DNA from: Candidatus Petromonas tenebris
GTDB lineage: Bacteria; Bacillota; Clostridia; Peptostreptococcales; Caminicellaceae
Direction: 5' to 3'
Length of the DNA: 64,000 nucleotides
Assembly (NCBI GenBank): GCA_014236755.1
Contig: JACCKY010000019.1
Coordinates: 1-64,000 of the forward strand
This document shows, piece by piece, positions 9,339 to 31,599 of this stretch. Each line of letters opens with the position of its first letter. The first letter of the stretch is position 1. The notes beneath the pieces were generated by a model. That model did not search any database, was not told the origin of the DNA, and saw nothing but the letters and a program-made list of their open reading frames with translations. Both the position numbers and the translations under genes were made by a program.

Positions 9339-9548
9339 TTGAAATATAATAAAAATATGACAATTTCAGAAATTTTGTTCAGCAATTCCAAAACTATTGA
9401 GGTTATGCACAAATATGGGTTAACTTGTCTAAATTGTTTGGGTGCTGAAAGAGAAACCCTTGAAGAAGTAGCTAGAGCAAATGAGATCGATTTAGATAAA
9501 ATGATAAAAGATCTAAATAATCTGGAAAAAGAAGATGCTTGTGTTTAA
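9339..9548 (+). CDS. DUF1858 redox-disulfide domain protein (Cys form)
   Basis: A 69-residue protein that is almost entirely a DUF1858 domain (small helical domain often fused to or near hybrid-cluster and redox proteins). The CLNC motif is the presumed redox pair. TTG at 9339 fits the CGGGGAGTG site. It is a useful comparison for the paralog at 27852, which has C-F-G-UGA at the same place. Function is unproven. Confidence 0.85.
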   Translation: MKYNKNMTISEILFSNSKTIEVMHKYGLTCLNCLGAERETLEEVARANEIDLDKMIKDLNNLEKEDACV

Positions 9549-18109: not shown

Positions 18110-18370
18110 TTTAAAGGTTATGATGGGAAGAGTAGGTATGTTGTCTTAGTTTCAGAGAACCGGGAAAGGTGAAAGCCGGTACTGAGACATATGCTGAAGA
18201 TGGCCCCTGAACTGTCTGTCTGAAACTTTAGTAGGCCAGGCCGGATTTGCATCCGTTATAAATGCAAGGTGATTACATGTCACTTAGTGAGTTCATTATG
18301 GCGACATAATGATGAAGTAGGGTGGTAACGCGAGACAAGCCTCGTCCCTTTTAGGGGATGAGGTTTTTTG
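18110..18370 (+). promoter_or_regulatory. T-box riboswitch (methionine) upstream of metG
   Basis: An RNA leader sensing uncharged tRNA(Met). Seen: a stem-I region ending in GAAGATGGCCCCTGAAC with a candidate AUG specifier at 18200-18202; the T-box sequence AGGGTGGTAACGCG (18319-18332); and a terminator CCTCGTCCC / GGGATGAGG plus T run (18340-18368). Uncharged tRNA would pair with the T-box and block the terminator, raising metG expression. Unusually, a family B repeat lies between this terminator and metG. Confidence 0.92.
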
Positions 18371-26816: not shown

Positions 26817-26841
26817 AAAGCGTCGTCAGACGCCTTTTTTC
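26817..26841 (-). terminator. Terminator of rhodanese gene (family C hairpin)
   Basis: AAAAAGCGTC gtca GACGCCTTTTT; on the minus strand it directly follows the rhodanese stop codon. Confidence 0.75.
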
Positions 26842-27280
26842 ATTTTACCAGTTCATATGACCAGTCTTCAATCCCTCCTGCGAGTACGTAAACTCTTGAA
26901 AACCCATTATTTGCCATAGCTTTTGCAATACTTTCACTTTTTTTGCCGTTATAGCAATAAACTAGATACACCTTTTGTTTATCAAAACTAGAATATTTGT
27001 CTTTTACGATTTTATAGGGCATTAAAATCGCCTGGGGAATGTGACCTTCTAAATATTCTTCTTCACCCCTCACATCAAGAACAGTTAGGTTATCATTTTT
27101 ACTAATGAGTACCTTGGCCTGTTCAGGTGAAATTTTATTATAGGTGTATTTCAAGTTTTGGGAAAAAGTCTCGCTGGACTTTGATAAGGTTACTAAAAGT
27201 ATAATACCTATTATCAAAGCTATAAGAATGGCGAGGGCTATATATAACTGTCTTCTCTTGATTATTAAAACCTTCAACAT
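26840..27280 (-). CDS. Membrane-anchored rhodanese-domain protein
   Basis: A 146-residue protein with an N-terminal membrane helix (about residues 11-31) and a single rhodanese domain facing outside or anchored at the membrane. The active-site loop is CYNGKKS with C109 as the persulfide cysteine; DVRGEEEYLEGHIP is the CH2-A motif. It would carry sulfane sulfur. ATG at 27280 follows AGAGGTGG. It lies downstream of the Cys-Sec protein gene on the same strand and diverges from the CoA-disulfide reductase operon. Confidence 0.88.
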   Translation of the reverse strand: MLKVLIIKRRQLYIALAILIALIIGIILLVTLSKSSETFSQNLKYTYNKISPEQAKVLISKNDNLTVLDVRGEEEYLEGHIPQAILMPYKIVKDKYSSFDKQKVYLVYCYNGKKSESIAKAMANNGFSRVYVLAGGIEDWSYELVK

Positions 27281-27386
27281 TCTACCACCTCTCATCTTCA
27301 TCATACTAATAATATATTTATAATGGGACGATTTTATTACTTTAATTTACATACTGAGGTATAATAAAGAGGCGGTAGATATACAA

Positions 27387-27764: not shown

Positions 27765-27796
27765 TTGACAGACTGTTAACAAAAGAGTAATATAAT
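27765..27796 (+). promoter_or_regulatory. Promoter of the DUF1858-Sec operon
   Basis: TTGACA at 27765-27770; TAATAT at 27788 (17-bp spacing) overlapping TATAAT at 27791-27796. A C/G-rich hairpin (ACCCCC...GGGGGT, about 27805-27825) lies in the leader before the start codon, similar to that in the yabE leader. Confidence 0.6.
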
Positions 27797-27851
27797 ATGT
27801 AGAAACCCCCACCCAGGAGGGGGGTGAATGTATAGAAAGGAAGGGAATAAT

Positions 27852-28043
27852 TTGTATACGGAAAAGGACATTATCAATGATGTTTTACTCAAGGATAGAG
27901 AAGCAGAAAAGATATTTAAAAAATTCGGAATCAGATGCTTTGGTTGAGGCGGTGCACTATATAAGAGCATTGGATATGCTTGTGAAATTTATAATGTAGA
28001 TTCAGAAAAATTACTTAAAGAACTAAATAATAGGGGGAAATAA
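27852..28043 (+). CDS. DUF1858-domain selenoprotein (C-x-x-Sec)
   Basis: A 63-residue DUF1858 protein if UGA at 27945-27947 is read as selenocysteine. It starts at TTG 27852 after AGGAAGGGA and ends 1 nt before the CoA-disulfide reductase ATG. The redox motif is C29-F-G-U32, where the paralog at 9339 has C-L-N-C. The flanks also align: KFGIRC versus KYGLTC, and YNVDSEKLLKELNN versus NEIDLDKMIKDLNN. A 5-bp hairpin (27966-27980) follows the UGA by 18 nt. The paralog comparison makes recoding much more likely than a mutation. Confidence 0.88.
27966..27980 (+). promoter_or_regulatory. SECIS-like hairpin of DUF1858-Sec gene
   Basis: AGCAT-TGGAT-ATGCT, a perfect 5-bp stem with a G-containing 5-nt loop starting 18 nt after the UGA, in the window expected for a bacterial SECIS. 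Confidence 0.65.
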
Positions 28044-28044
28044 A

Positions 28045-29700
28045 ATGATGAATCAAAAAGTTCTAGTTATCGGAGCTGTGGCAGCTGGAACTAAGACTGC
28101 TGCAAAGCTCAAGAGGGAAAATCCAAACTTTGATATTACTGTAATTACAAAGGATGAGTATATTTCCTATGCTGGATGTGGACTACCCTACTATATAGGG
28201 GGAGTAATAGAGGAAAAGAAAGAGTTAGTTGTAAAAACTCCAGAGGATTTTAAACTTATTACGGGTATAGATGTCTTAATCAATCATGAAGCCATTGATA
28301 TAGATAAGGAAAACAAAAAAGTTAAAGTAAAGGTTCTAGCTACAGGAGAAGTAAAGGACTTTCATTACGATAAGCTCGTTATTGCAACAGGAGCGTCTCC
28401 ATTTGTTCCACCGATAGAAGGAATAGACCTTGAGAGAGTATTTACCCTGAGAAGAGTAGAAGACGCTTTAGCCATAAGAGAGGCGGTAGAAAGTGGAGAG
28501 ATAAAAAAAGCAGTGGTAGTAGGTGGCGGGTTTATAGGACTTGAAACTGCAGAAAATCTGTTTGATAGAAATATAGAAGTATCAATAGTAGAGCTTGCTC
28601 CTCATATACTACCAGGTTTTGATGAAGAGATAGCATTGTATGCTCAAAATTATATGACTGAAAAAGGAGTTAATATATTAACATCTGAAAAAGTTGTATC
28701 CATAAAGGGAAAAGGTAAAGTAGAAAAAGTAGTTACTGACAAAAGAGAAATTGAAGCTGACTTGGTAATAATGTCAGTGGGAGTTAAACCAAACGTAGGT
28801 TTAGCTAAAAAGCTTGGCATAGAAATAGGAACTACGAGGGCAATAAAAGTAAATCAACATATGGAGACTAATATACCCGATGTTTATGCTGTAGGTGACT
28901 GTGCTGAAACTACAAACCTTATTACAGGCAAACCTGCTTGGTATCCTATGGGATCTACCGCTAATAAGATGGGTAGAGTTGCAGGTATCAATATGAATGA
29001 TCCTGAAGAAAAGGATTCACTAAAGGGCGTTTTAGGAACTACAGTAGTTAAGTTATTCGGATTAAATGCAGCTAAAACTGGTCTTTCTGAAAGGGATGCA
29101 AAAAAGGAAGGTTATGACGTGGTAAGCGTTATAGTACCGGGAAATGATAAGGCTCACTACTATCCGGGATACAGAATGATTATCACTAAACTTATAGCTG
29201 ATAAAAATACCCATAAGGTATTGGGTGCCCAAGTAATAGGAGAAGGTGTGGTAGATAAGCCTATAGATATTATTGCTACAGCTATAACCCTTGGAGCTAA
29301 GGTTGAAGATTTAGAAAAGCTGGATTTGGCATATGCTCCCCCATTCTCAATGGCAATGGCAACTACAATAGTTGCAGCTAATGTACTTCTAAACAAGCTG
29401 AAGGGCAAAATAGAAACTATATCTCCAGTCCAACTTAAGGATAAACTTGATGAGGTAGTTGTGCTGGATGTAAGGGATGAAGCTTCTAACATGATATGTT
29501 CAATTCCAGGTTGTATTAACATATACTCTGAAGAGTTGTCAATGAAGGCTGAGGAGCTGGATAAGAATAAGGAAACTGTCCTAGTATGCAAAATAGGCAA
29601 AAACGCATACCTTTCATACCTACAGCTTAAGGAGATGGGCTTTAAGAATGTAAAGGTGCTTGAAGGTGGCATGGCTGCCTATCCGTATAAAACAGAATAA
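28045..29700 (+). CDS. CoA-disulfide reductase/NADH oxidase-rhodanese fusion
   Basis: A 551-residue FAD- and NAD(P)H-dependent pyridine nucleotide-disulfide oxidoreductase. Rossmann motif VIGAVAAGTK at the N-terminus, the single active-site cysteine in SYAGCGLPYY (C45), a second GGGFIGLE nucleotide site, and a C-terminal rhodanese domain (about residues 455-551) with catalytic C515 in VCKIGKNAY. Fused enzymes of this type reduce CoA-disulfide, CoA-persulfide or polysulfide. It starts 1 nt after the DUF1858-Sec stop, so the two are co-translated; electrons or sulfur may pass between them. Confidence 0.92.
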   Translation: MMNQKVLVIGAVAAGTKTAAKLKRENPNFDITVITKDEYISYAGCGLPYYIGGVIEEKKELVVKTPEDFKLITGIDVLINHEAIDIDKENKKVKVKVLATGEVKDFHYDKLVIATGASPFVPPIEGIDLERVFTLRRVEDALAIREAVESGEIKKAVVVGGGFIGLETAENLFDRNIEVSIVELAPHILPGFDEEIALYAQNYMTEKGVNILTSEKVVSIKGKGKVEKVVTDKREIEADLVIMSVGVKPNVGLAKKLGIEIGTTRAIKVNQHMETNIPDVYAVGDCAETTNLITGKPAWYPMGSTANKMGRVAGINMNDPEEKDSLKGVLGTTVVKLFGLNAAKTGLSERDAKKEGYDVVSVIVPGNDKAHYYPGYRMIITKLIADKNTHKVLGAQVIGEGVVDKPIDIIATAITLGAKVEDLEKLDLAYAPPFSMAMATTIVAANVLLNKLKGKIETISPVQLKDKLDEVVVLDVRDEASNMICSIPGCINIYSEELSMKAEELDKNKETVLVCKIGKNAYLSYLQLKEMGFKNVKVLEGGMAAYPYKTE

Positions 29701-29705
29701 GATAA

Positions 29706-29886
29706 TATAGACAATAAAGTTCAAGGTTTAATTTATTAGGATTTTGAGAATCCTCCTGGCCTATGTGAAGATTTGCCCTCTTCAAATAAAAGATAGAAGT
29801 AGCAACAAATACTTCAAAAATACTCAGAAGGAAACCTCAAAATCCCTAGAGTAATATAAATTGAATTTTAAAGATGTTCATCTATA
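29706..29886 (+). repeat. Family A palindromic element, full length (A2)
   Basis: 181 bp from TATAGAC to TCTATA, inserted between the CoA-disulfide reductase and tusA. Arms as in A3. If transcribed it forms one long hairpin in the operon mRNA. Confidence 0.88.
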
Positions 29887-29908
29887 TTTTAAATTTGGAG
29901 GGATTAAT

Positions 29909-30133
29909 ATGGCAGAAATAAATTTAAATTGTAAAGGACTTCAGTGCCCAGGACCTATTATGCAAGTGTTTAAGACGGCTAAGGAAGCAAAATCAGGAGA
30001 TGTAATCAATGTGAAAGTTACTGACAGAGGATTTGCAAAGGATATTCAGGCTTGGTGTAAAAAGACAGGAAACGAATTGTTAGAGCTTAATGAAGGTGAA
30101 ACAGAAATAAGTGCAAAAATCAAAGTCAAATAA
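29909..30133 (+). CDS. tusA: TusA/SirA-family sulfur carrier
   Basis: A 74-residue sulfur-transfer protein. The CPGP motif with C13 (and C8) accepts persulfide sulfur from rhodanese or desulfurase and hands it on to DsrE-type proteins. ATG at 29909 follows TTTGGAGGG. It is directly upstream of the DsrE-like gene, a typical pair, and downstream of family A copy A2. Confidence 0.93.
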   Translation: MAEINLNCKGLQCPGPIMQVFKTAKEAKSGDVINVKVTDRGFAKDIQAWCKKTGNELLELNEGETEISAKIKVK

Positions 30134-30148
30134 AATAGAGGTGAAACT

Positions 30149-30622
30149 ATGACAGATAAAAAGACTATGATAGTCTTTAGCGGCGACCTGGATAAAGTCA
30201 TGGCGAGCTTTATCATAGCTAATGGAGCAGCAGCCATGGGAAATGAAGTAACCATGTTCTTTACCTTCTGGGGCTTAAATGCTCTTAGAAAGGCTAAAAA
30301 AGTTAAGGTTAAAAAAGATTTCATGGAAAAAATGTTCGGTTGGATGATGCCAAGGGGTGCCGAAAAGCTTGGACTATCTAAAATGAATTTTGGCGGAATA
30401 GGTGCTAAAATGATGAAGGATATAATGAAAAAGAAAAACGTAAGCAGCCTGCCGGAGCTTATAGAGATGGCTCAAATGATGGGCGTGAAAATAGTAGCAT
30501 GTACCATGTCTATGGATGTTATGGGCATTAAGGAAGAAGAGCTTATTGACGGCATAGAGTTTGCCGGAGTGGCAACCTATCTTGGTGAAGCCGATGAAGC
30601 CAATGTAAACTTATTTATATAA
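30149..30622 (+). CDS. DsrE/DsrF/DrsH-like sulfur-relay protein
   Basis: A 157-residue DsrE2-type protein. The N-terminal FSGDLDKVMASFIIANGAA and MFFTFWGLNALR are family signatures, and the cysteine in VACTMSMDVMG is the probable persulfide carrier. The middle is Met/Lys-rich. It partners TusA in sulfur trafficking at or near the membrane. Starts 15 nt after tusA with AGAGGTG. Confidence 0.9.
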   Translation: MTDKKTMIVFSGDLDKVMASFIIANGAAAMGNEVTMFFTFWGLNALRKAKKVKVKKDFMEKMFGWMMPRGAEKLGLSKMNFGGIGAKMMKDIMKKKNVSSLPELIEMAQMMGVKIVACTMSMDVMGIKEEELIDGIEFAGVATYLGEADEANVNLFI

Positions 30623-30838: not shown

Positions 30839-30858
30839 TAATGAAAAGGAGTGGAAAA

Positions 30859-31128
30859 ATGCCGAGTGAAAGTTCAAGGAAGGATATTATAAATAGATTA
30901 AGAACCCTGAAGGGGCATATTGCTGGAATAGAGAAGATGGTAGAAGAAGGCAAAAACTGCGAAGATATACTTCTTCAAATAGCAGCTATAAAATCATCTA
31001 TTCATAAAGTAGGGATGATTATCATAGAAGAACATGCTGTAGACTGTTTGCTTGGTGAAGATGATGAACCTCTTGAAAGGGGAAAGGTAGAAAAAATCAT
31101 AAAAACACTTATGAACTATATGAAATAA
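30859..31128 (+). CDS. CsoR/CstR-family transcriptional repressor
   Basis: An 89-residue all-helical metal- or persulfide-sensing repressor (DUF156). C34, H59 and C63 reproduce the C-H-C spacing of copper sensors (25 and 4 residues). C34 and C63 alone match the two cysteines of the persulfide sensor CstR, but CstR lacks the histidine. Sequence leans to CsoR; the neighbourhood (rhodaneses, TusA, DsrE) leans to CstR. ATG at 30859 is set by AAAGGAG. Confidence 0.87.
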   Translation: MPSESSRKDIINRLRTLKGHIAGIEKMVEEGKNCEDILLQIAAIKSSIHKVGMIIIEEHAVDCLLGEDDEPLERGKVEKIIKTLMNYMK

Positions 31129-31156
31129 AGCACCTAATTAGCTAGGTGCTATTTTT
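31129..31156. terminator. Bidirectional terminator
   Basis: AGCACCTA / TAGGTGCT hairpin with T tract between the convergent CsoR-like and DUF3189 genes. Confidence 0.85.
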
Positions 31157-31599
31157 AATTTAACTTTATTTACAATATCCACTATGTCGCCATATATCTT
31201 CATTGTTCCATAGGCAACTATGGGCCTTCCGAATCTAACCATTCTAAATTTTCTTGAACTTCCTCCCCCTAGTTTCATTAAAAAGTTTACTGTAGGGGAG
31301 GTATCAACCAGTATTATCTCACTTTGATCCATATTTATCATAGAAGGTATAGAACGAATAGCATTTGTAACAGGGTGCTTATGATATAACCTGCTAAGTG
31401 TATAAACTCTATTTCCGAACTCATCTACACCGTGAAAAATCAACCTACCTATATATTTTGATGTTAGCTTGTCGAACATAGGAATCTTCAGTATCTCCTC
31501 AGTAGTCGGTATCCTATCGGTAGGAAGTCTATTTAAATGTATATATGTTGCCACAACCGATGAATGGCTGCCGCCAACATCGTGATATATAACATGCAT
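31138..31599 (-). CDS. DUF3189-family protein
   Basis: A 153-residue protein beginning MHVIYHDVGGSHSSVVATYIH, the signature of DUF3189, a family restricted to spore-forming Firmicutes. No catalytic residues are known. GGGAGGATT precedes its ATG. It faces the CsoR-like gene across a shared terminator. Function unknown. Confidence 0.8.
   Translation of the reverse strand: MHVIYHDVGGSHSSVVATYIHLNRLPTDRIPTTEEILKIPMFDKLTSKYIGRLIFHGVDEFGNRVYTLSRLYHKHPVTNAIRSIPSMINMDQSEIILVDTSPTVNFLMKLGGGSSRKFRMVRFGRPIVAYGTMKIYGDIVDIVNKVKLKIAPS

Follow-up and report, generated by a model that had tools for sequence, protein, structure and literature searches.

The sequence at positions 27852-28043 of the window (i.e., the whole 64,000-nucleotide stretch that was analysed) is very probably a real gene encoding a 63-residue selenoprotein, in which the UGA at 27945-27947 is predicted from sequence comparison to insert selenocysteine. 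This in-frame UGA is best explained as the selenocysteine of a C-F-G-U motif in a small DUF1858/TIGR03980 protein, here termed the CFGU protein. Re-reading of the window sequence confirmed all coordinates given in the initial annotation. The features of the gene are listed below, with group A referring to the window's own group of orthologs (n = 8).

27839..27845, + strand: ribosome binding site GGAAGGG, read from the sequence
27852..28043, + strand: predicted selenoprotein gene of 63 codons including UGA as selenocysteine, with a DUF1858/TIGR03980 domain (sequence, profiles and orthologs)
27936..27938, + strand: TGC, putative resolving Cys29 of C-F-G-U, invariant across the CFGU rows
27945..27947, + strand: in-frame TGA, predicted selenocysteine at residue 32; TGA in all orthologs, with no TAA, TAG or Cys codon
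27965..27981, + strand: candidate bacterial SECIS-type hairpin GAGCAU-UGGAU-AUGCUU, at the same place in 8 group-A orthologs

Translation starts with a TTG at 27852, 6 nt downstream of the GGAAGGG, a choice backed by the ATG found at the matching position in orthologs. The frame ends with TAA at 28041-28043 and, as the initial annotation had reported, a single base separates it from the ATG (28045) of a CoA-disulfide reductase gene. When the product (LYTEKDIINDVLLKDREAEKIFKKFGIRCFGUGGALYKSIGYACEIYNVDSEKLLKELNNRGK) was compared to profiles with Cys in place of U, it scored 48.4 bits against the TIGR03980 model of NCBIfam (cut-off 44.95) and 30.2 against Pfam DUF1858 (PF08984), slightly under the cut-off of 32.2. 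A four-helix domain with the CxxC/U motif was predicted by AlphaFold2 (pLDDT 91). The best PDB match of this model was the DUF1858 solution structure 2k53 of Clostridium thermocellum (A3DK08), on which it superposed with an rmsd of 1.3 over 57 columns at 42% identity; by contrast to the CFGU protein, 2k53 has a CLGC motif and no selenocysteine. The DUF1858 structure 2k5e was also matched. An Rfam gathering scan of the window gave no match at the selenoprotein locus.

Orthologs provided the strongest evidence for the recoding of the UGA. The same UGA was kept in 26 of 26 orthologous genomes from four families (f1, f12, f31 and f33), with neither TAA nor TAG in its place, and the observation is for this reason beyond chance. 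UGA-containing orthologs were found in three of the four other genera of the same bacterial family, at 75, 67 and 63% identity. By a class-wide profile search of 391 genomes, the 18 top matches each carried one TGA and were followed only afterwards by Cys homologs, with several more TGA members further down the list. A degenerate pattern, CFG-TGA-GGAL[YF], was matched 28 times in about 85,000 species, and 26 of the matches were the CFGU protein; these and the 26 searched genomes with orthologs are overlapping sets. The two other matches, in Roseovarius (L113) and Pedobacter (L117), were rejected as chance occurrences.

Residues on both sides of the TGA were conserved among the CFGU orthologs, and pN/pS values downstream of the UGA were 0.36, 0.26 and 0.30 in three subgroups, indicative of purifying selection. 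In a tree of 84 DUF1858 domains, built from an alignment of only 63 columns, all 32 distinct CFGU sequences formed one clade (support 100/100) without any Cys member among the sampled sequences; Cys was found at the UGA position in homologs outside this clade. The initial annotation had taken a Cys paralog in the window (9339-9548) as the signature of a selenoprotein. This paralog does align at the motif, with CLNC opposite CFGU and its second Cys facing the UGA as claimed, but it is remote (27% identity), and the weight of the evidence lies with the UGA orthologs instead. Standard gene finding would truncate the CFGU gene to 31 residues or overlook it, throughout this Clostridia clade.

The hairpin that the initial annotation had noted after the UGA was located by pairing of 27965-27970 with 27976-27981, leaving a UGGAU loop that includes GG and lies 23 nt from the UGA. 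It proved weak in the window sequence alone, where it is not the minimum-energy fold (z +0.43; P = 0.035 by synonymous-codon resampling), and it was thus rejected as stand-alone evidence. Bacterial SECIS elements have been modeled with a stem of 4-16, a loop of 3-9 with a G in the first two positions, a spacing of 16-37 nt and a minimum free energy of -7.5 kcal/mol or lower (PMC13188914); the geometry of the window hairpin falls within these ranges, whereas its energy, -4.7 kcal/mol for the hairpin and -6.2 kcal/mol for the whole fold, does not reach that value. What makes the predicted element convincing is solely its conservation across orthologs. In group A, the RNA 18-34 nt past the UGA reads [A/G]AGCAU-N-GGN-N-AUGCUU, and within it Ser is encoded by AGC and Ala by GCT in 8 of 8 sequences, compared to 8% of Ser codons (AGC) and 17% of Ala codons (GCT) outside the hairpin in the same genes. 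The closing pair (27-31), which joins a silent third codon base to the first position of the codon two further on, is A-U, U-A or C-G in seven of the eight sequences and U.U in the window. Two other CFGU groups have different stems nearby, also with G-rich loops (TTGAGC-GGGCN-GCTCAA and AGAGCA-GGC-TGCTCT). Permitted hairpins tended to be stronger in UGA than in Cys genes, with some Cys genes sharing the same hairpin; the pooled rank test behind this comparison includes two wrong-frame 'U' rows (L149 and L068) and was given little weight. SelB would decode the UGA at 27945-27947 as selenocysteine by way of the hairpin at 27965-27981.

The machinery for such decoding was found in full. Of the four genes that the initial annotation had proposed to look for, selD, selA and selB form one cluster in the genome, with the tRNA-Sec gene (selC) a few kb beyond. 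The selD gene (1043-2089 of locus L022, contig C113 of the genome) has an in-frame TGA within an SG-U-AAK motif, and SelD is thus itself a predicted selenoprotein. SelB matches exceeded the cut-off in all 26 genomes that carry the CFGU gene and in 2 of 25 controls (Fisher, 1.5e-12), a P value that is no population estimate since the controls were not a random sample but, G002 apart, the genomes with the best-scoring nearest Cys homologs. Under strict filters, tRNA-Sec was detected in 21 of the 26 genomes with the gene and 2 of the 25 controls. Missing machinery or a lack of homolog conservation past the UGA had been named in the initial annotation as grounds against a selenoprotein; the machinery and the conservation were both found, and its reading is supported.

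Two other readings of the codon were weighed against these results. These bacteria use UGA as an ordinary stop codon, and the window hairpin is not the minimum-energy fold, as would suit a true stop that leaves a 31-residue fragment, or a pseudogene, followed by non-coding DNA, or else a sequencing error. Such an origin is, however, highly improbable, as a pseudogene, sequencing error or true stop is ruled out in practice by the conservation of the UGA across 26 genomes of four families, never as TAA or TAG, and by the purifying selection past it, and as the strict link of the gene to SelB also speaks against it. The second reading is that the codon is translated as Trp or Cys, through suppression or natural read-through; no evidence was found in its favour beyond the general knowledge that weak UGA contexts can be read through. 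We consider this reading hardly credible, given that homologs have Cys, the expected partner of selenocysteine, at the position, that the genome has the full selenocysteine machinery with the UGA of selD at a known Sec/Cys site, and that the gene was not found among the sampled SelB-negative genomes. For Trp in particular, no support was found, with Cys in the homologs and selD itself UGA-coded. Selenocysteine thus remains the preferred reading of the UGA.

Selenoproteins of the DUF1858 CxxU type are already catalogued, with WP_012065717.1 as an example (PMC9312934, PMC13188914), and the type itself is therefore not new. The CFGU protein shares with the catalogued entry the Pfam family, the motif type and selenocysteine at the second redox position. 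It differs from the CLGU branch, to which WP_012065717.1 probably belongs, in forming its own 100/100 clade with CFGUGGAL and no sampled Cys, whereas both UGA and Cys members occur in the CLGU branch. The same genome has a further DUF1858 gene with an in-frame UGA (G000:C47:12073-12234; loci L002, L023, L033 and L130; motif HCLGUAGA), probably near dnaB; some of its orthologs have UGA and others Cys, and the UGA ones share the hairpin AGCATCGGTGATGCT. The TIGR03980 model, over the cut-off of which the CFGU protein scored with Cys at U, is by name a hybrid cluster protein-associated redox disulfide (Cys-Cys) domain; by contrast, the neighbours of the CFGU gene here are sulfur genes, and a hybrid cluster protein was not seen adjoining it. 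Among NCBIfam models, none dedicated to the CFGU branch was matched by the product, and DUF1858 is not named in the main text of PMC5029168 or PMC2398784. The CFGU clade is thus probably a branch of the known DUF1858 selenoprotein family that was apparently undescribed before. The lack of Cys substitutes in this branch suggests a chemistry that is poorly done by sulfur, a question that keeps returning in the study of selenoproteins.

The surroundings of the gene in the window point to sulfur metabolism, as indicated by the following features.

27765..27796, + strand: probable sigma-A promoter, TTGACA then TAATATAAT, read from the sequence, with similar boxes in orthologs
27805..27825, + strand: operator-like inverted repeat ACCCCC-N9-GGGGGT of the CsoR-family type, perfect and the sole exact match in the window
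28045..29700, + strand: CoA-disulfide/CoA-persulfide reductase with a C-terminal rhodanese domain, next gene of the operon
29861..30133, + strand: TusA-family sulfur carrier (PF01206)
30149..30622, + strand: DsrE/DsrF-like sulfurtransferase (PF13686)
30841..31128, + strand: CsoR-family repressor (PF02583, 84.5 bits), likely the cluster regulator

Repeats resembling ACCCCC-N9-GGGGGT were found upstream of all eight group-A genes, and a CoA-disulfide reductase gene lies directly downstream of the selenoprotein gene in seven of the eight loci. The selenoprotein gene of Maledivibacter has a CsoR-family gene immediately after it. In the window, the CsoR-family protein encoded at 30841-31128 has a Cys, His (+25), Cys (+29) spacing, which we take to be typical of copper CsoR, though the operon content is sulfur-related; this spacing distinguishes it from the Enterococcus faecalis system discussed below. 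A CsoR-family gene and a predicted inverted-repeat operator with G/C tracts, the marks of a CsoR/CstR sulfur operon, were both found. The binding sites of CsoR-RcnR proteins are mostly pseudo-palindromes with G/C runs (PMC10318464). According to the available text of PMC9405070, the CoADR-rhodanese of E. faecalis is a CoA-persulfide reductase (CoAPR) controlled by the persulfide sensor CstR; this cst-like operon resembles the present one in its rhodanese-fused CoADR under a CsoR-family repressor, and differs in that no selenoprotein is described in that text. Based on the CsoR-type repeat, the CsoR gene, the CoADR-rhodanese, TusA and DsrE genes and the E. faecalis parallel, the selenoprotein gene appears to belong to, and in its own lineage to lead, a reactive-sulfur operon. 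The CsoR-family protein probably represses this operon by binding the ACCCCC-N9-GGGGGT repeat, with sulfane sulfur or metal stress as the probable trigger of derepression. The CFGU gene would thus link selenium to the bacterial reactive-sulfur response.

In other lineages, the gene has other neighbours. At loci L102, L104, L105, L107, L110, L112 and L121-L127, it lies directly upstream of a SCIFF radical-SAM maturase gene (TIGR03974, 671 bits at L102), a neighbourhood that may connect selenium with ranthipeptide biology. Where checked (L102, L121 and L126), a TrxB-like reductase gene is upstream of the CFGU gene, with TIGR01292 scores of 185-197 bits that are under the cut-off. The gene follows a thioredoxin gene in some lineages and is near aroC and PduL (named by eye) in another lineage group. 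Since the neighbours differ by lineage (CoADR, SCIFF maturase with TrxB-like reductase, or aroC/PduL), a CoA-specific role is not general. The CFGU gene with the SCIFF-maturase neighbourhood was also observed at 569-760 of L126, a 1.7 Mb contig that bears the label Calditrichales (Calditrichota); the gene is otherwise limited to Bacillota, and this copy reflects either a misassigned genome or a transfer.

From this gene neighbourhood, the CFGU protein would most likely act through its selenol as a carrier of electrons or sulfane sulfur, with a flavin reductase serving it. Since genes for a flavin disulfide reductase or thioredoxin recur next to it, a small redox carrier of the selenol type is favoured, and we would put the chances of an electron-carrier role in the reactive-sulfur response at about even. 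The single four-helix DUF1858 domain of the structural model would carry the Cys-Phe-Gly-Sec redox motif; the selenolate may attack a disulfide or persulfide and then form an Se-S bond with Cys29, which an NAD(P)H-FAD disulfide reductase would re-reduce. This reductase may be the adjoining CoA-disulfide/persulfide reductase here and, elsewhere, a TrxB-like one. The operon shared with rhodanese-CoADR, TusA and DsrE is also consistent with a sulfur or selenium carrier, i.e., a perselenide/persulfide shuttle linking rhodanese, TusA and DsrE, in place of an electron carrier; this possibility is the less favoured one, as neither TusA nor DsrE was observed in the vicinity of the gene in the SCIFF group or the aroC group and the conserved CxxU pair fits disulfide chemistry. 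Binding or delivery of a metal or Fe-S centre, as for the N-terminal domain of the ScdA/YtfE Fe-S repair proteins, was suggested by profile matches to ScdA_N, FeS_repair_RIC and solved ScdA sequences, by a weaker fold match to the YtfE N-domain and by the CsoR-type operator. It is an unlikely function for a protein that is without the di-iron domain and scores under the Pfam cut-off for ScdA_N (26.1 vs 32.5). If a redox carrier as favoured here, the CFGU protein offers a small, testable selenol protein with a fold other than that of thioredoxin. More speculatively, the CFGUGGAL proteins might be unrecognised, strictly Sec-dependent, minimal non-thioredoxin 'selenoredoxins' of Clostridia whose general role is to partner flavin disulfide reductases, namely the CoA-persulfide reductase in the reactive-sulfur response and a TrxB-like reductase in lineages with the gene beside that of the SCIFF ranthipeptide maturase.

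Other features were observed in the window. A membrane-anchored rhodanese gene (26840-27304, - strand) is divergent from the selenoprotein operon, and a similar gene occupies the corresponding position in G001 and Thermotalea (L026 and L116). A DUF3189 gene (31138-31599, - strand) is convergent to the CsoR gene and is also near the selenoprotein gene in Maledivibacter (L028 and L114). A T-box leader (RF00230, 125 bits) was detected at 18111-18352, upstream of an apparent methionyl-tRNA synthetase gene.
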